This document shows, one piece after another, positions 1-40,232 of a stretch of 64,000 nt of DNA. A program made the position numbers and the translations under genes. The stretch spans positions 104,995-168,994 of the forward strand of contig DGAD01000054.1 of the NCBI GenBank assembly GCA_002382805.1, given 5' to 3'. The notes below the pieces were generated by a model that saw only the letters and a program-made list of their open reading frames with translations, had not been told where the DNA came from and ran no database searches. This DNA is from Clostridiales bacterium UBA4039. Lineage in GTDB: Bacteria > Bacillota > Clostridia > Lachnospirales > Vallitaleaceae. Positions within the stretch are counted from its first letter, which is position 1. Every line of letters begins with the position of its first letter.

Positions 1-2
1 CC

Positions 3-1046
3 TATCATATTCTTGGACTTTTTTATGGACATACTCACGCAGATTATATCTATGAGGGCTGTAGTTTTCCTATAGTATCTATTGCATGTAATAAATGTGA
101 AGCCTTCAATGATAAAAAACCAGAAGGGGTGCGTGTTCCAAAGCGCATGATGAACCATGTATCTCAAGACTTATGGGAGACGATGATTGTAGATGTTGAT
201 CAAAAAAAGTTGCATCTAGTTCGTTTTGGAGCTGGAGAAAGCCGAATGATTGATTGTGTCAAGAAAAAGGTCTACAAGCAGACGTTAGGAGAAGAAAAAC
301 TACAAAAAAGTCAAGACCATCAAACAAAAATATGGGCGCATCGAGGGCTTATGTCCTATGCACCGGAAAATACAATGCCGGCTTTTGAATTGGCCTATGA
401 ACACGGCGCTGATGGGATAGAACTAGACGTTCAATTGACAAAAGATGGTGAGATTGTTATTATTCATGATGAGACGATTGACCGCGTAAGTAATGGAAGT
501 GGATACGTTAAGGACTATACGCTTAATGCGTTGAAAAAGTTTAATTTCAATCAACGATTTCCAGAATATGGAAAGGTGTCGATTTTGACCCTTGAGCAGG
601 TATATGCATTTATAAAAAACACACACATGTATATAAATGTAGAATTAAAGAACAATCACATCCCATATCAAGGCTTAGAAGAAAAAGTTATCCAACTAAC
701 TCAGGCAATGGGAATGCAAGAGCGTGTACTTTATTCGTCCTTCAATCATCAATCGATGAATAAAATAAAAGCACTGGATAAAAAAGCGAAGGTAGCCTAT
801 TTATATACAAAAGATATTATTCCGGCATGTGACTTTAATGAAGAGCAAAGTGAAATAATCCTACATGTATTGCCGATGCATTTAAAGCATCACGGATTCT
901 TAGAAGCTTGCCATAAGCGTAAGATTAAAGTGCAGGTGTGGAATATTAATACCGAAGATGATCTTCGCTGGATAAAAACATTAGGTGTTGAAGGGGTCAT
1001 TACAAATAGTGTGATACGGGCAACGACTATTTTTAATCAAAGTTAA
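3..1046 (+). CDS. Metallophosphoesterase-glycerophosphodiester phosphodiesterase fusion (5' end outside window)
   Basis: The frame is open from the first bases, so this is the C-terminal part of a longer protein. Bases 24-45 encode GHTHADYI, the GHxH metal-binding motif that closes a calcineurin-like metallophosphoesterase domain, and RFGAGESR follows (about 221-244). From about base 330 a glycerophosphodiester phosphodiesterase (GDPD) domain begins: WAHRGL with the catalytic His-Arg, APENT, then GIELDVQLTKDG and IIHDE, the expected metal and acid-base residues. GDPDs hydrolyse glycerophosphodiesters to glycerol-3-phosphate and an alcohol. An ATG at 129 would drop the phosphoesterase motif, so it is probably not the start. 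The next gene lies 16 bp on, which suggests one transcript. A role in trimming or recycling phosphodiester-linked glycan parts is inference. Confidence 0.85.
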   Translation, partial: YHILGLFYGHTHADYIYEGCSFPIVSIACNKCEAFNDKKPEGVRVPKRMMNHVSQDLWETMIVDVDQKKLHLVRFGAGESRMIDCVKKKVYKQTLGEEKLQKSQDHQTKIWAHRGLMSYAPENTMPAFELAYEHGADGIELDVQLTKDGEIVIIHDETIDRVSNGSGYVKDYTLNALKKFNFNQRFPEYGKVSILTLEQVYAFIKNTHMYINVELKNNHIPYQGLEEKVIQLTQAMGMQERVLYSSFNHQSMNKIKALDKKAKVAYLYTKDIIPACDFNEEQSEIILHVLPMHLKHHGFLEACHKRKIKVQVWNINTEDDLRWIKTLGVEGVITNSVIRATTIFNQS

Positions 1047-1062
1047 AAGAAAGGAATAGAGG

Positions 1063-2415
1063 ATGAAAAAAGTAATTACATATGGTTCGTTTGATCTATT
1101 CCACGAAGGGCATTATAATCTTTTAAAACGAGCTAAAGAGTTGGGCGATTATTTGATTGTGGGGATTACAACAGAATACTATGATATGCAGCGCGGTAAA
1201 ATGAATGTTATCGATTCCTTGCTTGATCGGATTGAAAATGTCAAGAATTCAGGATTTGCGGATGAAATCATTATTGAAGATCATGACGGACAAAAACTTG
1301 AAGACATCATTAAATATAAAATAGATATCTTTACCGTTGGTTCTGACTGGATTGGAACATTTGATTTTTTGAGAGAATATTGTGAAGTTATTTATTTGGA
1401 GCGAACGAAATATGTATCAAGTACTATGTTAAGAGACTCACGTTTTCCAATTATCAAATTGGGGATGATTGGAACGGGAAGAATTGCAAAGCGTTTTCCC
1501 GATGAGTTAAAATATGTTAGTGGTATTAATTTGAACGCTGTGTATAATCCAAATTTGAACAGTGCCAAAGCCTATAAGAAAATGTTTGAACTCGATTTGG
1601 CAACGGATCAGTTAGAGGAGTTTTATGAAAATGTTGATGCGGTTAATATAGCATCTCCCCATGAAACACACTATACATATATTCTTGATGCATTAAACCA
1701 TGGTAAGCATGTCCTATGTGAAAAACCATTGTGTTTATCTTCACAGCAGGCCATTAACGCCTATGCCTTGGCTAAAGAGAAGAATTTGGTCTTGATGGAA
1801 GGCATAAAAACGGCTTATGCGCCTGGATTTGTACAGCTTATTGGCGTTGCCAGAAGTGGTATTATTGGAAATATTCGTGATGTTGAAGCCTGCTTTACCA
1901 AATTAGTGCCGACAGATTGTCGTGAACTGACAGATCAAAAATATGGTGGATCATTTACAGAATTAGCATCATATACCTTGTTGCCGATTATTAAACTGAT
2001 GGGCTGCAATTATGAGAATGTACATTTTGAGAGTTTGAAGTCGGAAAATGGACTGGATATATACACAAAAGCTTATTTTTATTATAAAAATGCGTTGGCT
2101 ACATCTAAAACCGGATTAGGCATTAAGTCCGAAGGACAGTTGCTAATATCGGGGACCAAAGGATATATTTTAGTCAAATCGCCATGGTGGTTAACAAAAG
2201 GGTTTGAAATATGTTTTGAAGATACATCCCAAAATGAATACATCAAGACAAAATTTTTAGGTGATGGCTTACGCTACGAAATTAGCGATTTAGTGAAGCG
2301 GATTAATGGACGCTCTAAGCACATAAAAGATCGTTTGACACAAGAAGAATCCATTGCAATGGCAACATTGATGGAAAATTTTTTAGAACATCGTAGCTTG
2401 GAGGATATAGAATGA
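1063..2415 (+). CDS. TagD-like cytidylyltransferase fused to Gfo/Idh/MocA oxidoreductase
   Basis: Two enzymes are joined in 450 residues. Residues 1-127 are a glycerol-3-phosphate cytidylyltransferase-type nucleotidyltransferase: YGSFDLFHEGH carries the HxGH site at 14-17, and YVSSTMLRD at 117-125 matches the family's C-terminal signature. Residues 130-450 are an NAD(P)-dependent oxidoreductase of the Gfo/Idh/MocA family, with GMIGTGRIAKR at 134-144 and the EKP catalytic-lysine motif at 220-222. A likely joint task is reducing or oxidising a small phosphorylated polyol or keto compound and activating it as a CDP derivative. The substrate cannot be read from sequence. The stop overlaps the licD-like start (ATGA, 2412-2415), so the two are probably translationally coupled. 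Confidence 0.85.
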   Translation: MKKVITYGSFDLFHEGHYNLLKRAKELGDYLIVGITTEYYDMQRGKMNVIDSLLDRIENVKNSGFADEIIIEDHDGQKLEDIIKYKIDIFTVGSDWIGTFDFLREYCEVIYLERTKYVSSTMLRDSRFPIIKLGMIGTGRIAKRFPDELKYVSGINLNAVYNPNLNSAKAYKKMFELDLATDQLEEFYENVDAVNIASPHETHYTYILDALNHGKHVLCEKPLCLSSQQAINAYALAKEKNLVLMEGIKTAYAPGFVQLIGVARSGIIGNIRDVEACFTKLVPTDCRELTDQKYGGSFTELASYTLLPIIKLMGCNYENVHFESLKSENGLDIYTKAYFYYKNALATSKTGLGIKSEGQLLISGTKGYILVKSPWWLTKGFEICFEDTSQNEYIKTKFLGDGLRYEISDLVKRINGRSKHIKDRLTQEESIAMATLMENFLEHRSLEDIE

Positions 2416-3218
2416 TTGCATTGACACAAGAACAATTAAAGAAACTTCAGCAGATAGAATTAGAGATGCTTCTTGAAGTGGATCGTATATGTAAAAAACA
2501 TTCAATAAAATATACAATGATTGCCGGAACGATGTTAGGAGCCGTTCGCCATGGAGGTTTTATACCTTGGGATGACGACGCTGACATCGGTATGTTGCGT
2601 GAAGAATATGAACGCTTTAGAGAAATATGCAAAACAGAATTAAACACAAACCACTATTATTTTCAAGATTATAGAAATACTAAAGGCTATCGATGGGGTT
2701 ATGGTAAAATTCGAAGAAAAGATACGGTGTTTATGCGAGACGGACAAGAGCACATGCCTTATGAGCAAGGGGTGTTTATTGATATATTTCCCATGGATAA
2801 TATACCGGACAAATATTGGATTCGATGGATTCATGATAAGTTATGTTTTTCTATACGCAAGATACTTTGGTCAGAGGTTGGAAAGAAAACGGATAAAAAA
2901 TGGTTGAATCGGATGGTTTTCAAGGGATTAAATCGGATTCCTGAACAATCTATTAAGAAGGCTTTATATGCGTTTGAGAAAAAGAGTAATGCTAAAAAGA
3001 CAAAATATGTTCGGATGCTTATGTTTCCTTCTCCGAATAAAGTCTATGGATATAAGCGGGAATGGTATCAACAGTTAGCAGCATATAATTTTGAAGGACA
3101 CAAATTATATGGCATAAAAGAGGCGGATGCCTATCTCACATTTACATATGGAGACTATATGCAACAACCACCCGTTAAGGACCGAAAAGTACATCCGGTA
3201 TCAGAAATACAATTGTAG
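2412..3218 (+). CDS. LicD-family phosphotransferase
   Basis: This 268-residue protein has the LicD hallmark at residues 39-58, GTMLGAVRHGGFIPWDDDAD, a nucleotidyltransferase-fold active site with an acidic cluster. LicD proteins transfer phosphocholine or a related group from a CDP carrier to a sugar hydroxyl of a surface glycan. The gene overlaps the upstream CDP-activating fusion by 4 bp, and the next gene encodes a second CDP-type activating enzyme, so the donor is probably made by one of these neighbours. Whether the donor is CDP-choline, CDP-ethanolamine or something else cannot be told; no choline kinase or transporter is present here. No signal peptide or membrane segment is evident. 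Confidence 0.88.
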   Translation: MIALTQEQLKKLQQIELEMLLEVDRICKKHSIKYTMIAGTMLGAVRHGGFIPWDDDADIGMLREEYERFREICKTELNTNHYYFQDYRNTKGYRWGYGKIRRKDTVFMRDGQEHMPYEQGVFIDIFPMDNIPDKYWIRWIHDKLCFSIRKILWSEVGKKTDKKWLNRMVFKGLNRIPEQSIKKALYAFEKKSNAKKTKYVRMLMFPSPNKVYGYKREWYQQLAAYNFEGHKLYGIKEADAYLTFTYGDYMQQPPVKDRKVHPVSEIQL

Positions 3219-3229
3219 GAGGAACGAGA

Positions 3230-5062
3230 ATGCAAGTAATGATGTTAGCCGCTGGATTTGGCCGGCGCATGGGAAAACACACCCAAGATCAAACCAAGTG
3301 TATGATGGAAGTCGGTGATAAAAAAATTGTTGATCGTATTATTGATTCGCTACGACTAGCAGGGATATATAAGTTTATCATTGTGCTTGGATACCAAGGA
3401 AAATCTCTAAAAGAATATTTGCAAACAACTTATACAGATATGGAATTTATTTTTATTGAAAATATAGATTATGCGCATACGAATAATATATATTCTCTTC
3501 ATCTAGCTAGTGAAGAGTTGAAAAAGGATGATACGATTTTATTAGAGTCTGATTTAGTATTTGATAAGAATGTTATTAAAGATATGGTCGAACAACCGGA
3601 GTCGGATTTAGTTGCTGTTGCAAAATATGAGCATTGGATGGATGGAACAGTGACACGCATTGATGCAGAATGTAATATTGTAGAATTTATTGAAAAGAAA
3701 GATTTTCAGTTCGATGTTGCAGACGGTTATTATAAAACAGTCAATATATATAAATTCTCGAAAGAATTCGTAAGTCAGCAATATCTTCCCTTTTTATCGA
3801 CCTACATTCTAGCCTATGGAAAAAATCAATACTATGAATCTGTATTAAGAATTATAGCACATGTTAAACGTACAAAACTCAAAGCATTTTTACTTGATGA
3901 TGTGCGGTGGTATGAAATTGACGATCCACAAGACTTAGCTGTTGCTAATGCGCTATTTGGAAAAGAAGGACAGGAATTTGAGGCTTATGATCATCGATAT
4001 GGTGGGTTTTGGAGATTCCCAAAACTAATTGATTTTTGCTATTTGGTTAATCCGTATTTTCCAACCAATAAAATGAATGATCAAATAAAATATTTTTTTG
4101 ATACGCTTATTCGAACATATCCTTCAGGACTAAATATTCAAAATGCACTTGCAGCCAAAATTTTTGGCGTGGATGAAGACACCATTATTGTAGGTAATGG
4201 AGCTGCTGAGTTAATTAATTATCTGGGACAAGAGGCGAAAGGAACCGTCGCATTATGTACACCTGTTTTCCATGAATATATACGATGCTTTAAACATTGT
4301 AAAGTTCATGCGCTGCTTACCCACGAAAATAATTTTAAAATGGACAAGCAAAAAATCATGGAAGCCATTCCAAAGACAGATTATTTGGTGATTGTAAATC
4401 CAGATAATCCGACAGGAAGTTTTTTACATCAGCAGGATCTACTTGAAATCGTTGAAGTGTGTCAAAAACAGGGCGTAGTATGTATTGTGGATGAATCGTT
4501 TGTCGATTTTGCAGAAGAAGAGATAAAGTATACGCTTATTGATGATGAGATTATTCAACGTTACTCGAACTTAATTGTTATCAAAAGTATCTCAAAATCT
4601 TATGGTGTACCTGGATTAAGACTGGGAGTTCTTTTAACATCAAACCAAGCGGTATTAAATAGTATCAAAGAGGAACTATCCATTTGGAATATTAACTCAT
4701 TTGCAGAATACTTTATGCAAATTATGGATTTATATCAAACAGAATATATACATTCATGTACCCAAATCAGTCGCTTAAGAAAAATGTTTGCTACTCAGCT
4801 TGAAACGATTGATTACATTGAGACGTTCCCATCACAGGCCAATTATATCATGTGTAGATTAAGTGAAGGTGTTATTGCAAAAGAGCTTGCCAATTACCTG
4901 GTTAAAGAAAAATCGATTCTTATTAAAGACTTATCAGGGAAAGAAGGGATAACTGGGAATCAGTATATTCGCCTTGCAGTAAGAGAAGAAGTGGATAACC
5001 AGAAACTTATTGATGCATTAAGAAGCTATAAAAATGTAAATGAGGGAAAAAATGATAAATAG
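3230..5062 (+). CDS. LicC/PntC-like nucleotidyltransferase fused to CobD-like PLP enzyme
   Basis: The 610 residues hold two domains. Residues 1-245 are a nucleotidyltransferase: LAAGFGRRMG at 6-15 and K23 (QTKCM) form the NTP-binding loop, and NNIYSL at 85-90 resembles LicC and PntC cytidylyltransferases. Residues about 260-605 are a fold-type I PLP enzyme: NPDNPTG at 390-396, DESFVDF at 421-427, the PLP lysine K456 in SISKSYG, and PGLRLG at 461-466. The DE(A/S)F.DF plus PGLRLG pattern is closer to CobD (threonine-phosphate decarboxylase) than to typical HisC. One chain could therefore decarboxylate or transaminate a phospho-amino acid and cytidylate the product. PntC-type fusions that activate 2-aminoethylphosphonate are the other model, but no phosphonate genes are visible. 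Confidence 0.82.
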   Translation: MQVMMLAAGFGRRMGKHTQDQTKCMMEVGDKKIVDRIIDSLRLAGIYKFIIVLGYQGKSLKEYLQTTYTDMEFIFIENIDYAHTNNIYSLHLASEELKKDDTILLESDLVFDKNVIKDMVEQPESDLVAVAKYEHWMDGTVTRIDAECNIVEFIEKKDFQFDVADGYYKTVNIYKFSKEFVSQQYLPFLSTYILAYGKNQYYESVLRIIAHVKRTKLKAFLLDDVRWYEIDDPQDLAVANALFGKEGQEFEAYDHRYGGFWRFPKLIDFCYLVNPYFPTNKMNDQIKYFFDTLIRTYPSGLNIQNALAAKIFGVDEDTIIVGNGAAELINYLGQEAKGTVALCTPVFHEYIRCFKHCKVHALLTHENNFKMDKQKIMEAIPKTDYLVIVNPDNPTGSFLHQQDLLEIVEVCQKQGVVCIVDESFVDFAEEEIKYTLIDDEIIQRYSNLIVIKSISKSYGVPGLRLGVLLTSNQAVLNSIKEELSIWNINSFAEYFMQIMDLYQTEYIHSCTQISRLRKMFATQLETIDYIETFPSQANYIMCRLSEGVIAKELANYLVKEKSILIKDLSGKEGITGNQYIRLAVREEVDNQKLIDALRSYKNVNEGKNDK

Positions 5063-5843
5063 AATTGTAGATAATGAATTTGATCAACTTTTACAACACC
5101 TTGGCCAAAATTATTCCAATTGCTTTTATATTTACATTGATGCCATTACATATGGAAATACAGATCCGAATGTTTCTTTTTATAGGATAGGCGATGGATT
5201 TAAATGTGTGATAATGAAATATTATGATAGTATTCAAATTGCAGGTGAAGTGCATTCAGAGGATGAGACGAACTTACTATCCTTTTTAAAGAATGAAGAT
5301 GTCAAGATGATTACGGGAACGAAGAATACCCTTACGATGCTTCACAATAAAATGATGAATAATGGCACACATGAATATGTAGAAGGTATGAATTATCAAT
5401 ATGAAAGTTATCGTATTGCAAAATCACCGGTGAAGATAGAACGGGCCACAAAAGCAGATGCAAGAGCAATAGCGGAGTTGATTCTTTCAGACCAAACCTT
5501 TAAGAACAATTATGAAATCAAAACATTAGAACAACAGTTATCGGAGCGGATTGCGTCAGCTAAAGGACGAAGTTATGTAATCAAAGATGCACAGAAAGTC
5601 ATCGCGCATATTGCTACATATGCAGAAAGTGAACATGTAGCCGTAACCAGTGGAATGATTGTCGATAAAGCATATGTCAATAAAGGATATAGCTTTTACC
5701 TAGAGAGCTATATTGTCAATGACTTATTGGGCGAAGGGAAAAAGGTATTTACACAAGTTTTTGATAAAAAACGTGCAAAACTTTTAGAAAGTTTAGGTGC
5801 AACGTACTGTGGAGATTATGCAAAACTAACAAGGGTGAATTAA
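5052..5843 (+). CDS. GNAT-family N-acetyltransferase-like protein
   Basis: The start chosen is ATG at 5052, with GAGGG five bases upstream. An in-frame ATG at 5040 lies on the wrong side of that site. The resulting 263-residue protein overlaps the upstream gene by 11 bp. The N-terminal half is not recognised. The C-terminal half (about residues 125-260) resembles a GCN5-related acyltransferase: a strand reading IERATKADA, a central SGMIVDKAYVNKGYSFYLE where the acyl-CoA loop would lie, and the usual C-terminal LLESLGATYCGDYAKL. The classical Q/RxxGxG/A loop is degenerate (VNKGYS). It sits directly before fkbH-like and ACP genes, so its acyl donor may be ACP-bound rather than acetyl-CoA; this is inference. 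Confidence 0.7.
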   Translation: MINRIVDNEFDQLLQHLGQNYSNCFYIYIDAITYGNTDPNVSFYRIGDGFKCVIMKYYDSIQIAGEVHSEDETNLLSFLKNEDVKMITGTKNTLTMLHNKMMNNGTHEYVEGMNYQYESYRIAKSPVKIERATKADARAIAELILSDQTFKNNYEIKTLEQQLSERIASAKGRSYVIKDAQKVIAHIATYAESEHVAVTSGMIVDKAYVNKGYSFYLESYIVNDLLGEGKKVFTQVFDKKRAKLLESLGATYCGDYAKLTRVN

Positions 5844-5844
5844 T

Positions 5845-7623: not shown

Positions 7624-7850
7624 TGATGAATATAGTAGAAAAATTAAATGACATTATAAACTCAATCCTTGAGACCAAGGTAGTCATCAATAATCAAACA
7701 AAGTTTAGTGATCTACCTGAATGGGACAGCGTTGTTCAGATGACCTTTTTAGTGACCGTAGAAAATGAGTTCAACATAAGCATCGATATTGGTGAAGCAT
7801 TAGAAGCAGAGACAATAGGAGAGTTTTCGAGATGCATCATGAAAGAATAG
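7623..7850 (+). CDS. Acyl carrier protein
   Basis: This is a 75-residue acidic protein with the ACP helix pattern and the phosphopantetheine site in EWDSVVQM (Asp35-Ser36). The ATG at 7623 overlaps the fkbH-like stop (TAATG) and a second ATG follows at 7626; both give nearly the same protein. It is too divergent to be the fatty-acid ACP and has the DSV rather than DSL signature seen in many FkbH-associated carrier proteins. The expected role is to carry the C3 (or other) acyl group made by the preceding enzyme. A phosphopantetheinyl transferase is not in the window. Confidence 0.85.
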   Translation: MMNIVEKLNDIINSILETKVVINNQTKFSDLPEWDSVVQMTFLVTVENEFNISIDIGEALEAETIGEFSRCIMKE

Positions 7851-7885
7851 TAATTAACCAAAAAGTGTCTTAATAGGAGAATATT

Positions 7886-10262: not shown

Positions 10263-10298
10263 ATCCAATATTGAAACAATGATAACAAGGAGATAAAA

Positions 10299-11513: not shown

Positions 11514-11531
11514 GAGATCGAGGTATATCCC

Positions 11532-14008: not shown

Positions 14009-14035
14009 CAGCAACTGAAATGTGAGGCTATTTTT

Positions 14036-15382: not shown

Positions 15383-15396
15383 AAGGAGAGAACCCA

Positions 15397-17916
15397 ATGC
15401 GACAATTTGTAAAAAATCAGATTTTGCCGATTTTAGACTCAATGTTTGAGCTACATCAAGTAATTATAGGGATAGACAGTATAGAGCAAAAAAAGGTGTT
15501 TATTCAAGATTGTCAAGAAGCAGGTCGTGCAATCAAAGAGGTTATTGATGAAAATACAACCGATGCAACTAAGACGACCTTAGCTTATGAAAATTATGTG
15601 CAGGCTTTGGGAGTGTGTGAAGAAAAAGAAAGCTTAGATGATGTGGACTTAAAGGTGTTGAATGTATACCCGGATTTTTTGAAGAACCTAATAGAGACAA
15701 CCCCAACAACATATCATGTGGTTTTTTTACCGTATAAGGCAGCGATGTGGGATAGCTTAGAAAGCATATGGAAAGCAGCCCAGGCGGATAAAAACTGTGT
15801 AGCCCATGTGATTGCGATTCCATTTTTTGAATATAATAGTAAAAATGAGTCATGGGAAGCACGTTATGAAGGCGATCTTTTTCCGGCAGATGTCCCCGTG
15901 ACACATTATCAACAGTACTCGATTGAGATGATGCAGCCGGATATCGTTTATATACACAACCCCTATGATAATAGAAATCGAATTACAAGCGTACATCCAG
16001 ACTATTACTCTGAAAAGCTCAAACAAAATGTCGGACGACTTATTTATGTACCATATTATGTAACGAGTGGTTTTTTTCCAACAGAACATTTAGGGTTATC
16101 GGCATATGATCATGTAGACAATATCGTTGTACAGTCAGAGCATGTGCGAAGCAAATTTATAGCTACGCCATACTATGAAAAAGTTGTTGTATTTGGCTCG
16201 CCTAAATTAGACCATATAATAAATGCCTGCAGAAAAAAAACATCAATACCTAAAGCGTGGGAACCTATGCTTAAGGGGCGAAAAGCGATTATGCTTAATA
16301 CAAGTATTACATCTTTTTTAACAGATGGAGAAATCTATATAAACAAATTATTACAATTATTTAAACATGTGCAAAAGCTTAACTCGCTCTGTCTTATTTG
16401 GCGCCCGCATCCTCTGTTGGAGGGAACGGTTAGGTCGATGCGTCCTGAACTGACACACCGTTATGAAGAATTGGTCAACTATTTTGTATCGAATAATGTG
16501 GGGGTCTATGATACATCCCCACATCTATCGCGTACAATAGCGCTTTCAGAAGGCTATATAGGTGAAGAGGGGACATCCGTTATCAACTTATTTGAAGTTG
16601 TTGGAAAACCTGTGTTTACATTAGATAGCATCATAAGTCAGGATTTTGTCGGAATAGAGCAACGACGTCTTCTGATGTTGGATGCGACGGTGAACAACGA
16701 TGACCTATACTTTACGGCAGGTGCTGTTAGTGGGTTGTTTCATATGGATTTAAATTCAAAGCAGATAAACTTTATAGATCGCCTAAAAAATCAGCCGAAA
16801 TGGGTTAACACATATATAGGAATGGATCAAGACGCTGAGCAGGATACAATTTACTTTGCACCGTACTTAGCAACCTGGCCGGCAAAATACTCAATATCAA
16901 CACAACAGCTATCTGAACTGCCCTTAAGACAAGGGCAGGAAAGCATAGGTTGTAAAGGTGTTGTAAAATACAAGCAGTCAATCTTCTATATTCCGATGAC
17001 CCATGGGAATATGTTTGAATATGACTTGAAGGACAATACATGGAAGACACATAGTGCGTGTTTGGAAAAAGTTCCAAAGACACAACGCAACACCATCAAT
17101 AAGGTGGGAGGCTATGCGGTTGATGAGCAGCGTTTGTGGATAACGCTGGAAAATTCTCACTGCATTATTGAGTTTGATATGGACACAAGAAAGTATCAAT
17201 ACCATGCATTAGGAGAGGCTAATTATGGTTATAGTGCGATTACATGCGACGGGAATGATCTGTGGCTGGCAGAAGTGCATAGTGGGTATATAGTGCAGTG
17301 GAATCATCAAACACTTAAAACGCAATTATATAGTATGCCAAAAGCATTTAAACTATGGACAAATAATTTGAATGTTCCCTTAACGCATCTGCAACTGCTA
17401 AACTTGAAAGACTATATTGTCACAGTTCCGGGGTTTGCAAAATATGGCGTTAAAGTTAACAAAAAAACCGGCGCGACCAGTATACTTTCTCCAGAATTTT
17501 GGGAAGGGGCAGATCAGATTGCCAACGGATATCACCCGAAAAGAGTTTTTTCAACGATGATGGCAAAACAAATTGCGGATAATACCCTATTAATTCAGCG
17601 TCGATCTGATGGAAAAGTTGCAATTATTCAGTTGGAAAGTGATCAAATAGAGACTTTTTATCCAACCTTGTCTGAAGAGGTGTATATGCAAGTGTTTAAA
17701 GGCGAAGATGGATTTGAACAAAGTGATGCATATCATGTTTTTTGCCGAAAGGAAAGCCGCTACTTTACGTTACAAGGATTTCTTGATGATATTATTCATG
17801 AACAACTTGAAGGTGTAAAAGAACGGCAATTAAAAGCTGCCCAGACGATGGCAGATAATTTGGACGGAACGAGTGGAGAAAAAATCTACAAATATTTTAT
17901 CGATAATTTAGTGTAG
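15397..17916 (+). CDS. TagB/TagF-like glycerophosphotransferase with C-terminal beta-propeller-like region
   Basis: The 839-residue protein has a short helical N-terminus. A CDP-glycerol glycerophosphotransferase-like domain follows at about residues 105-415: VVFLPYKAAMWDSLESIW, PDIVYIHNPYD, the KLDH block and the donor-side IWRPHPLLEGT. TagB/TagF enzymes transfer glycerol-phosphate (or a similar CDP-activated group) to a glycan. Residues about 425-800 show repeated blades with patterns such as NDDLYFTAGAVSGLFHMDL and QSIFYIPMTHGNMFEYDL, consistent with a beta-propeller. That tail is unusual for the family and may bind the acceptor. The CDP donor could come from either TagD-like domain in the cluster. 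No membrane segment is evident. Confidence 0.8.
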   Translation: MRQFVKNQILPILDSMFELHQVIIGIDSIEQKKVFIQDCQEAGRAIKEVIDENTTDATKTTLAYENYVQALGVCEEKESLDDVDLKVLNVYPDFLKNLIETTPTTYHVVFLPYKAAMWDSLESIWKAAQADKNCVAHVIAIPFFEYNSKNESWEARYEGDLFPADVPVTHYQQYSIEMMQPDIVYIHNPYDNRNRITSVHPDYYSEKLKQNVGRLIYVPYYVTSGFFPTEHLGLSAYDHVDNIVVQSEHVRSKFIATPYYEKVVVFGSPKLDHIINACRKKTSIPKAWEPMLKGRKAIMLNTSITSFLTDGEIYINKLLQLFKHVQKLNSLCLIWRPHPLLEGTVRSMRPELTHRYEELVNYFVSNNVGVYDTSPHLSRTIALSEGYIGEEGTSVINLFEVVGKPVFTLDSIISQDFVGIEQRRLLMLDATVNNDDLYFTAGAVSGLFHMDLNSKQINFIDRLKNQPKWVNTYIGMDQDAEQDTIYFAPYLATWPAKYSISTQQLSELPLRQGQESIGCKGVVKYKQSIFYIPMTHGNMFEYDLKDNTWKTHSACLEKVPKTQRNTINKVGGYAVDEQRLWITLENSHCIIEFDMDTRKYQYHALGEANYGYSAITCDGNDLWLAEVHSGYIVQWNHQTLKTQLYSMPKAFKLWTNNLNVPLTHLQLLNLKDYIVTVPGFAKYGVKVNKKTGATSILSPEFWEGADQIANGYHPKRVFSTMMAKQIADNTLLIQRRSDGKVAIIQLESDQIETFYPTLSEEVYMQVFKGEDGFEQSDAYHVFCRKESRYFTLQGFLDDIIHEQLEGVKERQLKAAQTMADNLDGTSGEKIYKYFIDNLV

Positions 17917-17943
17917 AATTAAAGTTGTGGTTAGGAGCATAGA

Positions 17944-20196
17944 ATGAATGCACAGGAAATGTTAAGAGAACTTCCGAAAGGACTATTAAACTGGTATAGT
18001 TTTAGTGATAAATGTACAATTTTATATATTGGTGATGAAAAGGATACCATCTATGAACTGCTTATAAAAAAAGCAGAGGTTGTTGAGGCTGTAAAAAGTG
18101 ACCGAAGCATTGATAAAGCATTCATTAGTGATAGAACAGCCACATACGATTATATTGTTGCTCTTTATCAACTTGAGAAAGCAAAGGATCCGGTAGAGGC
18201 GCTTATAGGATGGAAGCAAATGCTAAAAAATACAGGAACCCTTCTTCTAGGAACGGATAATCGCTTAGGTATACGTTACTTCTGTGGAGATAGGGATCCC
18301 TATACCGGAAGAAGCTTTGATGGAATTGAAAACTATCGACAGATTGTATCCTATGGCAAAGCATATATCCAAGGGAGAAATTATTCAAAAGCAGAAATCA
18401 AAGGCTTTCTAAACCGTGCCGGATGGAAGCATTACAAAACCTATTCAGTTCTTCCCAATTTGGAAATGCCGCAAGTGATTTATGCACAGACAATGTTGCC
18501 AAATGAAGAATTAGGGATTCGCTTGTTTCCAAAGTATAATCATCCGGATTCGGTTTTTTTAGATGAAAAATACGTCTATAGTGATCTTATAAATAATGGT
18601 ATGTTTCATAGTATGGCCAATACGTATTTGTTTGAATGTAGTCAAAGCAAACGATTTGACAACGTCGAACATGTAACTATTTCCATGGACCGTGGAAGAG
18701 ATAATGCACTCATGACACTCATCAGAGACACGCATACTGTAGAAAAAAAAGCCGTTTACCCTGAAGGAAATCAGAGATTACAACAAATTGTGAACAACCA
18801 AACGGTGTTAAAAAGCTGTAATATAAAGATGGTTGAAGGAAAATTAGTCAATAATACATACATCATGCCATTTGTAGAGGCGCCAATGGCTATAGACTAT
18901 ATTCGAAAGTTAGCATTTATGGACAAAGAGGAGTTTATTCGAGCAATTGATCGCTTTCGAGAGGTAATATTAAATTCTTCAAACCATGTTGATTCCATAG
19001 AGGAAACAAATCACCAAAGTGTTATATTGGAAAAAGGGTTTATTGATTTAGTACCCTTAAATTGTTTCTATGTTGATGGGGAATATATGTTTTTCGATCA
19101 AGAATTTTATGTGGAAAATTATCCGGCCAATGCAATTATATTTCGGGCTATTGAAATTATCTATATGCAAGATGCAAAAATCGAATCTATATTCTCTAAA
19201 GATTTTTTTTGGCACCGTTATAATCTTCAAAATGATGTTGAGCTGTGGAGAAAAAAATCGGGAGAGTTCACACAGAAACTCCGCAATCAAAAACAGTTAA
19301 AACCATTTCTTGAACAACATGAGATTAATCATCAGACGGTTCATACGAACCGTCAGCGAATGAATTATTCAAAAGATGAGTATCAGAAAATTTTTGTTAA
19401 TATATTTAAGGGGATTCAAAATCAAAAGATTATTCTTTTTGGTTCAGGGAATTTTACAAAGCGTTTTTTGAGTCTGTATGGAGAAGATTATGCGATTGCG
19501 TTTATTGTAGATAACAATCCAAATCAATGGGGGAAAAAACTAAATGGAATAGAAATTTGTTCGCCAGAGCGCTTAGTCAATCTAAACCTAGAGACATATC
19601 GAATTGTTATCTGTATTAAAGCGTTTTTACCGATTGTACACCAGTTAAAGACAATGGAGATTGATACGTACTATGTGTATGACCGGAATATCGAATATGA
19701 ACATACACAGACACCAAAGGTGATCGTACCAAAGGATAAAAGTCAGACAATAAAAAAATATAATATAGGCTATATTGCAGGGGTCTTTGATTTGTTTCAT
19801 GTAGGGCACTTAAACTTATTAAAGCGTGCAAAAGAGCAATGTAATTATCTCATTGTGGGGGTGGTTTCGGATGAAGGGGTTAGAAAAAACAAAAAAGTTG
19901 AACCCTATATTCCCTTTGATGAGCGCATAGAGATTGTTCGTTCCTGCCGATATGTGGATAGAGCGGTCGAGATTCCCTTGAATTTTGCTGGATCACGAGA
20001 GGCTTATGAGAAGTACCAATTTGATTGCCAATTTTCAGGAAGCGATTATAAAAATGATTCGGACTGGGAAGCAAACAAGATTTTTTTGCAAAAAAAAGGA
20101 GCAACCCTTGTTTTCATACCATATACCGAACAAACGAGTTCGACAAAAATAAAAAAGGCTATTCAAACAAGAGGCGAAAAGAATAATTTAGATTAG
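17944..20196 (+). CDS. Multidomain protein: SAM-methyltransferase-like, kinase-like, accessory and TagD-like cytidylyltransferase
   Basis: Four parts are visible in 750 residues. Residues 1-180 look like a class I SAM-dependent methyltransferase-type domain (ILYIGDEKDTIYELL, later TLLLGTDNRLGIRYFCGD). Residues about 230-480 resemble an aminoglycoside-phosphotransferase or kinase fold (FIDLVPLNCFYVDGEYMFF followed by DQEF). Residues about 490-585 are the shared accessory domain (ILFGSGNFTKRFLSLYGED, IVDNNPNQWG). Residues 600-745 are a glycerol-3-phosphate cytidylyltransferase-like domain with GVFDLFHVGH (HVGH at 619-622) and TSSTKIKKAI. A plausible job is phosphorylating a small alcohol and turning it into a CDP donor for the preceding TagB/TagF-like protein. 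The first domain may have lost methyltransferase activity. Confidence 0.75.
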   Translation: MNAQEMLRELPKGLLNWYSFSDKCTILYIGDEKDTIYELLIKKAEVVEAVKSDRSIDKAFISDRTATYDYIVALYQLEKAKDPVEALIGWKQMLKNTGTLLLGTDNRLGIRYFCGDRDPYTGRSFDGIENYRQIVSYGKAYIQGRNYSKAEIKGFLNRAGWKHYKTYSVLPNLEMPQVIYAQTMLPNEELGIRLFPKYNHPDSVFLDEKYVYSDLINNGMFHSMANTYLFECSQSKRFDNVEHVTISMDRGRDNALMTLIRDTHTVEKKAVYPEGNQRLQQIVNNQTVLKSCNIKMVEGKLVNNTYIMPFVEAPMAIDYIRKLAFMDKEEFIRAIDRFREVILNSSNHVDSIEETNHQSVILEKGFIDLVPLNCFYVDGEYMFFDQEFYVENYPANAIIFRAIEIIYMQDAKIESIFSKDFFWHRYNLQNDVELWRKKSGEFTQKLRNQKQLKPFLEQHEINHQTVHTNRQRMNYSKDEYQKIFVNIFKGIQNQKIILFGSGNFTKRFLSLYGEDYAIAFIVDNNPNQWGKKLNGIEICSPERLVNLNLETYRIVICIKAFLPIVHQLKTMEIDTYYVYDRNIEYEHTQTPKVIVPKDKSQTIKKYNIGYIAGVFDLFHVGHLNLLKRAKEQCNYLIVGVVSDEGVRKNKKVEPYIPFDERIEIVRSCRYVDRAVEIPLNFAGSREAYEKYQFDCQFSGSDYKNDSDWEANKIFLQKKGATLVFIPYTEQTSSTKIKKAIQTRGEKNNLD

Positions 20197-20200
20197 AGGT

Positions 20201-20227
20201 TAATTTTTTTGAAAAACAATCCGATAA
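20201..20227 (+). promoter_or_regulatory. Candidate sigma-28 (SigD) flagellar promoter
   Basis: TAAT at 20201-20204, a 15-base spacer, and TCCGATAA at 20220-20227 closely match the SigD/FliA pattern TAAA-N15-GCCGATAA. It lies 37 bp before flaG, where a flagellar late-gene promoter is expected. No comparable SigA promoter is seen here. Confidence 0.55.
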
Positions 20228-20263
20228 CTATATCAGAGGTATTGAATTTGAGGAGGTAATGCA

Positions 20264-20662
20264 ATGAGAGTTGAAACAATCAATAGTGAGTATCAAACAA
20301 GAGCATCCTATATGAATGGAATGCAATCAAAGAATATGGGAGTATCTCAGGCAGAAGCTAAAAAAACAAAGGATCACAATGATAAAAATGCGGCTGCTCA
20401 TGCAGAACCCAAAAATACAAAGGAAGCCGGAAAAGAAGAAAAAGATAAAACATTAGAAGCAATTGAACAAGCAAACAAGCATTTACGTATATATAATCGG
20501 CGATTGGAATATGAAATCCATGAAGCGACAAACCATATTATGGTGAAAGTCATCGATGCAGAAGATGACAAAGTCATCCGTGAAATTCCTTCGGAAAAGA
20601 TTCTTGATATGGTTGGACGCATTTGGGATGTAGCAGGAATTTTAGTTGACGAAAAGCGATAG
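20264..20662 (+). CDS. flaG: FlaG family flagellar protein
   Basis: The 132-residue protein has a charged, low-complexity N-terminal half (many Lys, Glu and Asn) and the conserved FlaG C-terminal half: LRIYNRRLEYEIHEATNHI, then VIREIPSEKILDM. FlaG proteins affect filament length and are normally encoded just before fliD, as here. The start ATG is preceded by GAGGAGG at 20250-20256. A candidate SigD promoter lies upstream. It stands at the junction between the glycan cluster and the flagellar cap genes. Confidence 0.9.
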   Translation: MRVETINSEYQTRASYMNGMQSKNMGVSQAEAKKTKDHNDKNAAAHAEPKNTKEAGKEEKDKTLEAIEQANKHLRIYNRRLEYEIHEATNHIMVKVIDAEDDKVIREIPSEKILDMVGRIWDVAGILVDEKR

Positions 20663-20685
20663 TATCTTTTTAAGGAGGCAATAAC

Positions 20686-22170
20686 ATGGGTATACAATTT
20701 ACTGGATTGGCATCAGGATTAGATACGCAATCCATTATTAATGACATGATGAAGGTAGAAAATTTAAAAGTACAGCGTGTCAAAAATCAAAAAACAATGA
20801 TTGAGTGGAGAAAAGATGCGTGGAGTGAGATGAACTCAAAACTGTATTCTTTTTATAAAGAAGAACTGTTTGATTTTAAATCTCAAGGTACATATCAACA
20901 GAAAAAAGTGACGAGTTCAAACGACGCAATAGTGTCTGTTAAGAACACGAACAGTGCATTGGTAGGTAGTCACACAGTTGATGTTCAGCAGATGGCCAAA
21001 GGTTCGTTTTTAACAGGGACAGAGCTTGCGGATACAACGACGGGGTCAACAACGGCTCGAGACTTAATGGGCTTAGCCGAAGGCGACGCATGGACAGATA
21101 AGACAATTACTGTAGAAGCAGATGGTGTGACCAGTAAGTCAATTACCATCGAAGAAACAGATACACTAGATAGTATCATGAAAAAATTCAAAGATACAGG
21201 ACTCGATATTAATGCAACTTATGATTCAAACTATAACCGTATCTTCTTATCCACAAAAGACACAGGAGAAAACCTTCAACTTGAATTATCAGGGGATAGC
21301 CAAGCATTAGAAAAACTTGGTTTCCAAGCAGGGAATCTTGTGGGAACGGCTGGACAAGATGCAGTCTTTACCTATAATGGAACAGAGTTGACAAGTGCGA
21401 CAAATGATGTTAATGTCAATGGATTATCTCTATCTATTCGTGCAGATAGCGGTTCGGTTAATATTGCAGCAACGCAAGATACAGATGCTATTTATGAAAA
21501 AGTCAAAGAGTTTGTCTTAAAATATAATGAACTAAAAGATTTGTTTAACACAAAACTAAATGCGGATTCAGCGAGAGGTTATGATCCGCTGTCATCGGAA
21601 GAAAAAAGTGCAATGTCTGAAGACGAAATTGAAGCATGGGAGACAAAAATTAAAGACGCACTTCTTCGACGTGATAATAAACTAGAAGATGTAGATAACC
21701 TCATGCGAAGTACGTTGACAGCATCTATCGGCGTGGATACAAGCGGTATGGAGTATAAATACTTGGCAGACCTAGGCATTGTTACAGGTGCATATACTGA
21801 AAAAGGGTTGCTACATATTGAAGGCGACGATGATGATACACTTTTTTCTGAAAAGGAAAACAAACTTCGACAAGCGATAGAAGATAATCCTGATGATGTG
21901 ATGGAATTCTTATCGGCGTTAGGTGGACAGCTTTATGATGAGATGCGAGATAAGATGAAATCATCAACAATGAGCAGTTCATTAACATTTTACAATGATA
22001 AACAAATGAGTGATCAAATTGAAGATAAAGAAGAAGAGATTGCAAAACTGGAAGATAGACTTGCTGCAATTGAGGAAAGATATTATAATCAATTTGCAGC
22101 TATGGAACAAGCTATGCAAAAAAGTCAGTCAACAGGGCAGTGGCTATCGCAACAATTTGCATCATTTTAA
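20686..22170 (+). CDS. fliD: Flagellar hook-associated protein 2 (filament cap)
   Basis: The 494 residues start with FTGLASGLDTQSIINDMMKV, the conserved FliD N-terminus, and end in a coiled coil (about residues 440-475, rich in Glu/Lys heptads) followed by GQWLSQQFASF. The central region holds the variable D2/D3-type domains and two long acidic patches. FliD caps the growing filament and folds secreted flagellin. The gene is 23 bp behind flaG and 27 bp before fliS, so the three are likely co-transcribed. The ATG is preceded by AAGGAGGC. Confidence 0.95.
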   Translation: MGIQFTGLASGLDTQSIINDMMKVENLKVQRVKNQKTMIEWRKDAWSEMNSKLYSFYKEELFDFKSQGTYQQKKVTSSNDAIVSVKNTNSALVGSHTVDVQQMAKGSFLTGTELADTTTGSTTARDLMGLAEGDAWTDKTITVEADGVTSKSITIEETDTLDSIMKKFKDTGLDINATYDSNYNRIFLSTKDTGENLQLELSGDSQALEKLGFQAGNLVGTAGQDAVFTYNGTELTSATNDVNVNGLSLSIRADSGSVNIAATQDTDAIYEKVKEFVLKYNELKDLFNTKLNADSARGYDPLSSEEKSAMSEDEIEAWETKIKDALLRRDNKLEDVDNLMRSTLTASIGVDTSGMEYKYLADLGIVTGAYTEKGLLHIEGDDDDTLFSEKENKLRQAIEDNPDDVMEFLSALGGQLYDEMRDKMKSSTMSSSLTFYNDKQMSDQIEDKEEEIAKLEDRLAAIEERYYNQFAAMEQAMQKSQSTGQWLSQQFASF

Positions 22171-22197
22171 GTTGTAAGAGTATTCAGGAGGAATTAA

Positions 22198-22593
22198 ATG
22201 ACAAGTAATCCATATGCGAAAATCAAGCAAAATTCAGTGATGACAGCTTCAGCACAAGACTTGACACTCATGTTATATGATGGAGCTATAAAATACGCTA
22301 ATCAAGCAATTGTTGCAATTGAGCATAAGCAATATGACGTGGCGCATGCCAAAATTATGCGAGTTCAAGACATAATACAAGAATTTATCGTGACCCTTGA
22401 TCCAAATTACGAGATTTCAACGGATATGCGTCGATTGTATGATTATCTATATCAACGACTAGTTCAGGCAAATGCGCGAAAAAATGTGGAAATTATAGAA
22501 GAAGTACTTGGTTTTCTAAGAGAGTTTCGAGATACATGGAAACAGGCGATGGAACTATCAAAGCAAGGAACGCAATCTGTACAAGTACAATAA
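22198..22593 (+). CDS. fliS: Flagellin secretion chaperone FliS
   Basis: This is a 131-residue, mostly helical protein. NPYAKIKQNSVMTASAQDLT and LMLYDGAIKYANQA at the N-terminus are the FliS signature, and YDYLYQRLVQANARKN forms a later conserved helix. FliS binds the flagellin C-terminus in the cytoplasm, prevents early polymerisation and hands it to the export gate. It is directly downstream of fliD, the usual clostridial and bacillar order. An AGGAGG site stands seven bases before the ATG. Confidence 0.94.
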   Translation: MTSNPYAKIKQNSVMTASAQDLTLMLYDGAIKYANQAIVAIEHKQYDVAHAKIMRVQDIIQEFIVTLDPNYEISTDMRRLYDYLYQRLVQANARKNVEIIEEVLGFLREFRDTWKQAMELSKQGTQSVQVQ

Positions 22594-22609
22594 GTCAGGC
22601 GGTGAAGTT

Positions 22610-23095
22610 GTGCAAGAAGTCATTACAACATTAGAATTGTTGAATCATGGTCTTTTATCAAAAAAGAAAAGCCTTGAGGCTTTATTAATGTACACAAAAG
22701 AGCAACAACAATTGCTAGCTGAAGAAATGTTTGATATGAAAGCTTTTAATACGCTTATTAAAAAGAAACAACAAGATATTAACAATATTGTTCAAATTGA
22801 TGATGGGTTTGCGCAAAGTTACAAACGTATTCGCCATCAAGTGGAAAAACACCCAACAATGTATGCGGATTACATACGATTAATACAAGAAAATTTAAAA
22901 GTAATATCAGAATTAAGTACGGAGATAAGTGTTTTAGAAGAAAAAAACAATATGACCTTTAAAAATGTGTCAAAAAAAACAAAAGAGTATATTCGTTCCT
23001 TTAGGACAAACAAGAAGTCTGTTGTTAATTATTATAAGAACTATAATAAGCAGCAAGAAAGTGTGCGAGATCGGTTTTTTGATTCACAAAAGTAA
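22610..23095 (+). CDS. FlgN/FliT-like flagellar chaperone, putative
   Basis: The start is GTG at 22610, only 16 bp after fliS. The 161-residue product is almost wholly helical, with long heptad-like stretches and many Gln, Lys and Glu residues (for example TTLELLNHGLLSKKKSLEAL). It has no membrane segment or signal peptide. Length and helical content fit the FlgN family of export chaperones for hook-associated proteins, but the family match is weak. Position after fliS is the main support. The gene is the last before the ribosomal superoperon. Confidence 0.6.
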   Translation: MQEVITTLELLNHGLLSKKKSLEALLMYTKEQQQLLAEEMFDMKAFNTLIKKKQQDINNIVQIDDGFAQSYKRIRHQVEKHPTMYADYIRLIQENLKVISELSTEISVLEEKNNMTFKNVSKKTKEYIRSFRTNKKSVVNYYKNYNKQQESVRDRFFDSQK

Positions 23096-39347: not shown

Positions 39348-39363
39348 ATGCGTATTTCGATTC

Positions 39364-39392
39364 TTGTTTTTGTGATCTTGAAATGCTATAAT
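39364..39392 (+). promoter_or_regulatory. Promoter upstream of the galactose-binding-like gene
   Basis: TTGTTT at 39364-39369, a 17-base spacer, and TATAAT at 39387-39392. The -35 match is partial. It lies just behind the tuf terminator, so the two-gene insert is transcribed on its own. Confidence 0.55.
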
Positions 39393-39431
39393 AGACTGAT
39401 GTCGGACATAAAGAAAAAAAGGAGGTATATT

Positions 39432-40223: not shown

Positions 40224-40232
40224 GGAGAGCAC

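Follow-up and report, generated by a model that had tools for sequence, protein, structure and literature searches.

Layout of the glycan gene island

The window analyzed here is a stretch of 64,000 nucleotides from Clostridiales bacterium UBA4039 (contig DGAD01000054.1, positions 104,995 to 168,994). Its first part carries glycan genes of an island that lies within the late flagellar cluster of this genome (G000, contig C3, 168,994 bp). The gene order, on one strand, is glf, flgM, flgN, two flgK-like genes, flgL, fliW, csrA, the flagellin gene (fliC), 17 glycan genes, flaG, fliD, fliS, a FlgN/FliT-like gene, and nusG. The names flgM, flgN, flgL, fliW, csrA, flagellin, and nusG were assigned by reading translations, and glf and the second flgK were backed by Pfam. 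The open reading frame (ORF) caller of our script was greedy by length, and small genes may have been missed or misnamed. We consider it probable that the 17 genes form a flagellin-glycosylation island in which CDP-activated small molecules are attached as phosphodiesters.

The 17 co-directional genes between fliC and flaG on the full contig encode two GT2 glycosyltransferases with TPR repeats (GT-TPR), a metallophosphoesterase fused to a glycerophosphodiester phosphodiesterase (GDPD; mpe_gdpd), a TagD-Gfo fusion (tagD_gfo), LicD, a LicC-CobD fusion (licC_cobD), a GNAT-like protein, FkbH, an acyl carrier protein (ACP), a GT4 glycosyltransferase, three GT2 enzymes with a Rossmann-like module, a TIM barrel with this module (tim_ross), a module-DUF4422 protein, a TagB-like protein with a propeller (tagB_prop), and a protein with methyltransferase-like, kinase-like, module, and TagD parts (kin_tagD). 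Pfam recognizes GT2 five times and GT4 once. The two GT-TPR genes and the 5' part of mpe_gdpd precede base 1. The window holds 15 of the 17 genes, the first truncated, at 1..20196 on one strand; flaG, fliD, fliS, and the FlgN/FliT-like gene then extend to 23095 (Table 1). The G+C content of the island parts (0.322-0.366) represents a small drop from that of window 23600-64000 (0.374).

An earlier note, made from the window alone, had described 14 glycan genes running without a break into flaG-fliD-fliS. The genes are real, and their number rises to 15 in the window and 17 on the contig. Strand and spacing bear out the continuity: between the first GT-TPR gene and kin_tagD, neighboring genes are separated by -23 to +36 bp, while 85 bp separate fliC from the island and 67 bp separate the island from flaG. 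However, the 67-bp gap contains a sigma-28-like site; therefore, flaG-fliD-fliS probably have their own promoter.

In a second genome of the same species (G183, a single contig), all 17 genes are open with 94.8-100% identity. Since the whole arrangement is intact there, an assembly artefact is unlikely. The G183 kin_tagD has 748 residues instead of 750, and its fkbH was read as two overlapping slices.

Table 1. Positions of the island genes and adjoining flagellar features, in window coordinates (L003, locus that includes the upstream flank)
Feature	Position	Strand	Evidence or remark
Flagellin gene (274 amino acids)	-4579 to -3755 (L003:11421-12245)		directly ahead of island
mpe_gdpd, 3' part (metallophosphoesterase + GDPD; 704 amino acids in full)	1..1046	+	PF00149 6.3e-12, PF03009 1.1e-44; full gene L003:14932-17046 = window -1068 to 1046
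tagD_gfo (TagD-like cytidylyltransferase + Gfo/Idh/MocA dehydrogenase)	1063..2415	+	PF01467, PF01408
LicD-family phosphotransferase	2412..3218	+	PF04991, 150 bits
licC_cobD (LicC-like NTP transferase + CobD-like pyridoxal phosphate domain)	3230..5062	+	PF12804, PF00155
GNAT-like acyltransferase	5040..5843	+	23-bp overlap with licC_cobD; weak PF00583
FkbH (HAD-IIIC protein)	5845..7623	+	TIGR01686, FkbH_N PF21211
ACP, 75 amino acids	7623..7850	+	PF00550 5.9e-7; 1-bp overlap with fkbH
GT4 glycosyltransferase	7886..8998	+	PF00534; 38% relative in G001
GT2 + C-terminal Rossmann-like module (weakest module member)	8985..10262	+	PF00535
GT2 + C-terminal Rossmann-like module	10299..11513	+	PF00535
GT2 + C-terminal Rossmann-like module	11532..12797	+	PF00535; 36% in G001
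tim_ross (xylose-isomerase-like TIM barrel + Rossmann-like module)	12791..14008	+	PF01261
Rossmann-like module + DUF4422	14036..15382	+	PF14393, 183 bits
tagB_prop (remote TagB/TagF-like domain + beta-propeller, 839 amino acids)	15397..17916	+	
kin_tagD (methyltransferase-like + kinase-like + Rossmann-like + TagD-like cytidylyltransferase, 750 residues)	17944..20196	+	
Sigma-28-like site, TTAA-N17-CCGATA	20200..20226	+	38 bp ahead of flaG
flaG	20264..20662	+	PF03646
fliD	20686..22170	+	PF02465, PF07195
fliS	22198..22593	+	PF02561
FlgN/FliT-like chaperone	22610..23095	+	PF05130, 24.4 bits, below cut-off; 70% in G001 (L073)

Probable link of the island with flagella

Matches to T(A/T)AA-N17-CCGATA, a sigma-28-like pattern, were found upstream of three flagellar genes, at distances of 36 bp for flgM, 91 bp for fliC, and 38 or 39 bp for flaG. 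They are placed alike in 3/3 genomes from two species, namely, those of the window, G183, and the congener G001 (UBA2432, L073). Intergenic DNA accounts for 1,359 of the 34,734 bases of the scanned stretch in the window genome, and all three CCGATA-ending sites are intergenic. No sigma-28-like site inside the island is common to the three genomes. The TagB-like gene contains a fourth match, which ends in CCGATT. In G001, four additional sites are placed elsewhere.

The island proteins contain no transmembrane-like segment in a simple hydrophobicity scan, and Pfam revealed no flippase, polymerase, or transporter among them. The lack of such segments is consistent with flagellin being glycosylated in the cytoplasm and exported afterwards, and is at odds with a complete capsule or teichoic acid locus. 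LicD, the TagD-like and LicC-like domains, and the TagB-like protein are enzymes of teichoic acid and capsule synthesis, and relatives of the island genes adjoin flippases in the genomes G028 and G031. It is nevertheless very unlikely that a capsule or teichoic acid locus merely happens to be located inside the flagellar cluster, in view of the missing flippase, polymerase, transporter, and transmembrane matches, the position, the sigma-28-like sites, and the flagellar co-occurrence and linkage described below. No gene with Glyphos_transf (PF04464) was found anywhere in the window genome. An ordinary wall teichoic acid or capsule locus was rejected on this result together with the lack of transmembrane segments. 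A TagF-family gene with PF04464 lies at G002:C23:343-1338 in the congener G002, which has no FliD.

Co-occurrence was evaluated in an even sample of the order, in which 183 of 295 genomes carry FliD_N. All 13 carriers of kin_tagD matches that reach past the TagD domain have FliD_N (Fisher p 0.0017; 0.007 minus three own-genus carriers). These 13 were chosen by this reach from 26 kin_tagD-matched genomes; the uncounted matches are partial methyltransferase/kinase matches in G233, G278, and G290, all with FliD, and 10 TagD-only matches, seven with FliD. For full-length tagD_gfo at 53% identity or more, FliD_N is present in 18 of 19 genomes (p 0.0011), the exception being G031. The congener G002 lacks kin_tagD and tagD_gfo as well as FliD.

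Fifty genomes with named contigs and kin_tagD were also queried, and FliD_N exceeded the cut-off in 48 and flagellin was present in 50. They represent 50 of the 79 kin_tagD loci; the 29 left out are mostly partial or TagD-only, but include the full-length L108, L115, L117, and L119. In at least 12 of the 50, kin_tagD lies within 60 kb downstream of the nearest listed flagellin gene on the same strand. G073 was not counted because it has a nearer flagellin gene on the opposite strand besides one on the same strand approximately 20 kb upstream of kin_tagD.

Several results weigh against a flagellar role. Counts of the sigma-28-like pattern exceed those in shuffled sequences by a modest margin; the pattern by itself is not rare, and the promoter argument therefore rests on the conserved places. 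A terminator-like hairpin directly follows fliC, and expression of the island therefore needs read-through or a promoter that was not found. A scan of window 1-20000 was near chance (nine terminator-like elements against 9.0 expected and 107 promoter-like elements against 93.9). When all full-length tagD_gfo relatives are taken, including those of 41-44% identity, FliD_N is present in 20 of 25 (p 0.039), which is weak; a split relative in G043 was left out of the 25. The co-occurrence tests ignore phylogeny and common descent. A listed flagellin gene shares the contig with kin_tagD in 18 genomes. In six of these, the nearest one lies upstream, on the opposite strand, or more than 60 kb away; the other 32 of the 50 have no flagellin on the kin_tagD contig among the matches listed.

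Modules of the island also occur outside flagellar settings. In G028, which has no FliD, the neighbors of a LicC-CobD relative include a Polysacc_synt (Wzx-type) flippase and a LicD relative. In G031, also without FliD, tagD_gfo relatives lie beside Polysacc_synt flippases, once with a TagF-family gene. The modules are therefore not specific to the flagellum. The earlier note had named occurrence of the cluster in relatives without flagella, or beside export genes, as a reason to abandon its reading; single modules in G028 and G031 do occur in this way, and the island as a whole looks flagellum-specific. A membrane protein near LicC-CobD in G114 was considered as a flippase and ruled out, as it is DctM.

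Its position, the conserved sigma-28-like sites, the lack of transmembrane segments and flippases, and the flagellar co-occurrence and linkage of key genes make it very likely, on sequence evidence, that this is a flagellin-glycosylation island, as the earlier note had suggested. That kin_tagD always adjoins fliD was rejected: this adjacency was seen only in the own genus (G000, G183, and G001), and in other genomes kin_tagD is found some way behind fliC or at another site.

Candidate CDP-activation units and transferases

The earlier note had recognized two TagD-like domains, a LicC-like domain, LicD, FkbH, and ACP, all of which are present with their catalytic motifs. The active-site motifs for TagD, LicD, LicC, the pyridoxal phosphate (PLP) domain, FkbH, and ACP used here are general knowledge.

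The closest PDB match of tagD_gfo is 1coz (E 7e-33, residues 1-125), and the motifs HEGH and RTKYVSST are kept. We propose that this cytidylyltransferase-reductase fusion is a synthase of a CDP-alditol or a similar compound. A product of this type is supported by the TagF-family gene and flippase that adjoin TagD-Gfo in G031. In the CDP-ribitol synthases TarIJ and Bcs1, a cytidylyltransferase is coupled or fused to a reductase that makes an alditol phosphate. The logic appears the same here, with a Gfo/Idh/MocA reductase and a TagD-like cytidylyltransferase. A tagD_gfo relative in two overlapping pieces with stops, perhaps a decayed copy, was observed at G043:C34:97928-99270.

The N-terminal part of licC_cobD is LicC-like (LicC 1jyk, 3.5e-10), with the NTP-transferase motif kept. 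The PLP domain is of class I/II and CobD-like, and retains the lysine motif SISKSYG at residue 453. Its closest family is threonine-phosphate decarboxylase (TIGR01140, 188.2 bits against an equivalog cut-off of 290.55); CobD is thus the nearest family, yet by this score the domain is not a CobD. The top PDB match is 6oux, "threonine phosphate decarboxylase-like", which we take to be the serine phosphate decarboxylase SMUL_1544. We propose that licC_cobD acts as a phospho-amino-acid decarboxylase and CTP transferase, the simplest product of which would be CDP-ethanolamine or CDP-aminopropanol. Cj1436 is of the same fold type as the 6oux-like decarboxylases. In capsule synthesis, this enzyme decarboxylates serine phosphate, giving ethanolamine phosphate (PMC12409886). 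The reaction suggested here is likewise the decarboxylation of a phospho-amino acid, and the fused cytidylyltransferase would give CDP-ethanolamine directly. LicC-CobD fusions were rejected as a novelty, since at least 8000 candidates scored E <= 1e-20, and both types of domain are present in each of the best 120. Among 59 relatives, full-length LicC-CobD was found only in the own genome, G003, and G028.

The earlier note had described this protein as LicC/PntC-like. A LicC-like domain fused to a PLP domain is also seen in 6pd1, the solved Treponema denticola PntC (PMC6697681), and the fusion could in principle activate aminoethylphosphonate in a phosphonate-tailoring (Pnt) pathway. However, 6pd1 aligns only with residues 2-145 of licC_cobD, and it is named a class V aminotransferase. 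In addition, no phosphoenolpyruvate mutase was found in the genome, by a search that was positive in 11 of 14 control genomes, and a phosphonate-making role is therefore unlikely. We rejected the PntC reading on these two grounds and regard phosphonate tailoring as scarcely credible; the LicC-like half of the description stands.

The TagD domain of kin_tagD keeps the motifs HVGH and TEQTSST. In its middle region, D368xxP371xN373 and D385xE387 are invariant in 16 aligned sequences, and because of these D-x-x-P-x-N and D-x-E motifs, a kinase plus cytidylyltransferase is the best reading of the protein. The following points count against it or blur it. A profile of the kinase-like region had no match in PDB, and the kinase assignment rests on the motifs and an AlphaFold2 model with a mean predicted confidence (pLDDT) of 73. 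The top PDB sequence match of the TagD domain is the ethanolamine-phosphate cytidylyltransferase 3elb, whereas by fold glycerol-3-phosphate cytidylyltransferases match equally well or better; the substrate hint thus differs between sequence and fold. The methyltransferase-like part is below the Pfam cut-offs in the window's protein and has no clear glycine-rich motif. The family is large, with 2033 proteins at E <= 1e-10, and the best 120 of the 2033 cover at least 97% of kin_tagD.

WbdD has its methyltransferase first in the domain order. This Escherichia coli O9a protein combines a kinase and a methyltransferase, and its N356 and D369 coordinate metal (PMC3482155). N373 and D385 of kin_tagD may be compared with these residues. 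In contrast to WbdD, Rossmann-like and TagD domains follow in kin_tagD. WbdD and kin_tagD had no sequence match at E <= 10, and WbdD was absent among the 50 matches listed by each fold search, in which the kinase part was barely covered.

TIM-barrel relatives lie close to kin_tagD in many loci, and we propose from its family that tim_ross is an isomerase or epimerase for a precursor. Often, kin_tagD is followed by two adjoining TIM-barrel genes, only one of which carries the Rossmann-like module (e.g., L113, L119, and L087 after 12229). This module of approximately 100 residues resembles PglD_N and quinovosamine dehydrogenase and occurs in the three GT2 proteins, the TIM barrel, the DUF4422 protein, and kin_tagD (window 8985-15382 and 17944-20196). 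Leave-one-out profiles recovered five of the six members above shuffled controls, with E values of 5e-8 for GT2 10299..11513, 6e-6 for GT2 11532..12797, 1e-8 for tim_ross, and 9e-4 for the DUF4422 protein; that for GT2 8985..10262 was 0.015, no better than the best shuffle (0.012).

Two proteins may transfer the activated molecules. LicD, the sole LicD match in the genome, keeps the WDDDAD motif, and its PF04991 match exceeds the cut-off. The second, tagB_prop, was called a TagB/TagF-like transferase in the earlier note. It does not match PF04464; however, a profile-profile comparison with TagB/TagF gave a remote match (P 2.7e-4, HH probability 42%) with collinear motifs in the C-terminal half, and a propeller control gave P 0.61. 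The remoteness of this assignment counts against the proposed phosphodiester chemistry. A phmmer search of PDB yielded no match, and the fold matches listed were filled by the propeller and bear on it only. The modeled C-terminal part is a beta-propeller, and from the motifs we propose that tagB_prop is a CDP-dependent phosphotransferase. Its GSPK, RPHP, and GKP motifs are retained in a relative in G138. A LicD-TagB-like fusion in G406 (L236:6370-8307), 26% identical to residues 94-392 of tagB_prop, lacks them.

FkbH scored 252 bits with TIGR01686 (cut-off 146.65) and has the motif DADNTLW. Its partner ACP keeps the phosphopantetheine site EWDS. We propose from these families that FkbH loads a glyceryl group on ACP. 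The GNAT-like protein matches PF00583 at E 0.0013, below the cut-off, and a phrog acetyltransferase at 8e-4; little else was gained from the PHROGs search. Its relatives were found in 11 places in 9 of 392 genomes, and the surroundings were viewed in four genomes besides the own species. They lie near LicC-CobD in G114, beside tagD_gfo in G031, and near a LicD-TagB-like fusion behind fliC in G406. The G114 and G031 neighborhoods suggest that the acyl group is placed on a CDP-linked molecule. A GNAT copy in G414 has no island gene beside it, which weighs against this idea, and acyl transfer to a CDP-linked molecule is the weakest step of the proposed pathway.

Relatives, proposed pathway, and meaning

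In the congener G001, the same two island ends lie between fliC and flaG-fliD. Identities are 64% and 76% for the two GT-TPR proteins, 64% for the metallophosphoesterase-GDPD protein, 69% for LicD, and 84% for TagD-Gfo at the near end, and 57% for the TIM protein, 52% for the DUF4422 protein, 53% for the TagB-propeller protein, and 66% for the kinase-TagD protein at the far end. The order of LicD and TagD-Gfo differs between the species. In the center of the G001 island, an aldolase, an FGGY kinase, an Fe-alcohol dehydrogenase, and a free-standing LicC-like gene replace LicC-CobD, GNAT, FkbH, and ACP, and other glycosyltransferases and UDP-sugar enzymes are also present. The gene content of the island thus varies between close relatives. 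The differing cassette is the part that would make one CDP-linked molecule, as seen in one species pair; therefore, the decoration probably differs between relatives.

Seven regions from fliC to kin_tagD were fetched from G311 (Lacrimispora algidixylanolytica, L113) and six metagenome-assembled genomes, picked for closeness on one strand; the slices of G073, G075, and G108 end 1.5-2.3 kb short of fliC. TagD-Gfo relatives are present in all seven (for G075, the slice covers no more than the Gfo part), TIM-barrel relatives are in or directly beside all seven, and LicD relatives are present in five. A canonical TagF-family gene and a Gfo-GDPD fusion are further members of the G065 island. Behind fliC in G138 come, in a row, relatives of GT-TPR and tagB_prop, TagD-Gfo, and a LicD relative. 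In G406, tandem fliC genes are followed by one 318-residue ORF, the LicD-TagB-like fusion, and the GNAT relative. Since Gfo, GDPD, TagD, LicD, and TagB-like domains fuse in changing ways behind flagellin genes, we argue that they serve one pathway.

These comparisons bear on an unlikely alternative, in which the flagellin island would make a purely alditol-phosphate (teichoic-acid-like) side chain, and the CobD-like and FkbH parts would serve sugar amination or acylation instead of an amino-alcohol phosphodiester. TagD-Gfo is the best-conserved island protein between the congeners, recurs in other fliC-linked islands, lies beside a TagF-family gene in G031, and shares one island with such a gene in G065; moreover, full-length licC_cobD is absent from G001. 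However, licC_cobD retains both the NTP-transferase motif and the PLP lysine, and relatives of full length have LicD nearby in G028 and, in G114, both a TagF-family protein and a GNAT relative.

The reading that we favor is an island with several CDP-activated donors. Two GT2-TPR enzymes would start the glycan on Ser/Thr of the 274-residue flagellin in the cytoplasm, and the GT4, GT2, and DUF4422 enzymes would extend it. Judging from families, motifs, and fusions, tagD_gfo would reduce a keto-phosphate and then cytidylylate the product to a donor of the CDP-alditol type, licC_cobD would decarboxylate phosphoserine or phosphothreonine and cytidylylate the amino alcohol phosphate, and kin_tagD would phosphorylate an alcohol and then cytidylylate it. 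FkbH and ACP would present a glyceryl group; the GNAT-like protein would transfer it, and its acceptor may be the amine that licC_cobD would produce. LicD and the TagB/TagF-like enzyme would take over the phospho-molecules from CDP and join them to the glycan through phosphodiester links. The modified flagellin would leave via the flagellar apparatus, and because of this export no flippase would be needed. We infer the CDP-activated phosphodiester chemistry, and hence the alcohols and amino alcohols foreseen in the earlier note, from enzyme families and motifs.

The genes around the island contain further features. The UDP-galactopyranose mutase gene glf (L003:3795-4898; window -12205 to -11102) lies just upstream of flgM, likewise in G183 and G001, and from this position galactofuranose may be part of the glycan. 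Five of the 79 kin_tagD loci (L074, L086, L094, L104, and L111) likewise have glf in the flanks that were fetched. Tandem unlike flgK-like genes (535 and 570 amino acids; L003:5889-9224) are kept in G001, G183, and other relatives. At window 39348-41954, a chemoreceptor (MCP) gene and a 291-amino acid gene without a Pfam match sit between a 397-amino acid ORF, by position probably tuf, and an S10 ribosomal leader RNA. In an Rfam scan, two ribosomal leaders were the sole matches of the window, and L003 had none.

The earlier statement that the island matches no known system was too strong, in view of published islands in Geobacillus, phosphodiester glycans in Clostridioides difficile and Pseudomonas aeruginosa, and cj1302, besides the common LicC-CobD fusions. 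Geobacillus has glycosylation islands between flagellin and flaG, one strain with tagD and a phosphatidylglycerophosphate synthase gene (PMC5109656). The present island resembles them in its position between fliC and flaG, its glycosyltransferases, and content that differs between relatives (PMC5109656). The Geobacillus islands hold pseudaminic acid and dTDP-sugar genes, and the accessible part of that account does not mention FkbH, LicD, or glycerophosphotransferase (PMC5109656). In contrast, three CDP units, LicD, a TagB-like enzyme, and FkbH-ACP are present here.

C. difficile type A and P. aeruginosa b-type flagellins carry phosphodiester-linked threonines (PMC10714395, PMC11833859). The proposed system is similar in that a small molecule is joined to sugar by a phosphodiester, and in that the cluster has a LicC-like cytidylyltransferase and, by a remote profile match, a candidate TagF-like phosphotransferase. 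As far as these accounts were accessible, the published systems use one donor, hypothesized to be CDP-threonine, with a phosphoserine-phosphatase-like protein and a methyltransferase (PMC10714395, PMC11833859). Unlike in C. difficile type A, the decarboxylase-like domain here suggests a decarboxylated product. The LicC-like feature (CD0242) is present through NTP_transf_3 and LicC 1jyk, at the family level and not by alignment to CD0242 itself. The TagF-like feature (CD0244) may correspond to tagB_prop with its remote profile match, and the N-methyltransferase feature (CD0243) at most to the methyltransferase-like part of kin_tagD. A phosphoserine-phosphatase-like counterpart of CD0241 was found neither with Pfam among the 17 island proteins nor with NCBIfam among 10 of them; FkbH belongs to HAD-IIIC, another subfamily than that of CD0241.

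The chemistry of the Campylobacter jejuni cj1302 region concerns other sugars. The flagellar glycosylation region of this bacterium holds the fkbH-domain gene cj1302, a feature shared with the present island, and the accessible account mentions no CDP-alcohol modules (PMC7099621). ACP genes occur in enterobacterial islands (PMC4875605). No description of the present island or of the kin_tagD family was found among the matches listed from openly licensed literature, which is a weak negative.

The present study revealed a core that recurs behind flagellin genes in other Lachnospirales, and a congener with the same island ends and a different central cassette. The predicted combination of three CDP-activation units is also new, as is a methyltransferase/kinase/Rossmann/TagD family for which no described role was found. 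We tentatively raise the possibility, which we rate below an even chance, that this island represents a flagellin glycan class undescribed in the papers searched, which would extend through Lachnospirales (and, judging from kin_tagD, Selenomonadales) and bring teichoic-acid-like chemistry to a cytoplasmic protein. A constant backbone set of GT-TPR, GDPD, TagD-Gfo, LicD, TIM barrel, TagB-propeller, and kinase-TagD proteins would be combined with an exchangeable CDP-donor cassette that sets the terminal group, here an N-glyceryl amino alcohol phosphate made via LicC-CobD, GNAT, FkbH, and ACP.

In the gut, the flagellins of Lachnospirales come into contact with the immune system of the host. If flagellin carries phosphate-linked alcohols or amino alcohols, the charge and recognition of the filament would change. 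The proposed pathway would also assign activities to fusion proteins for which we found no described role (the kin_tagD family, TagD-Gfo, TagB-propeller, and LicC-CobD), and an exchangeable donor cassette would explain the differences between relatives.

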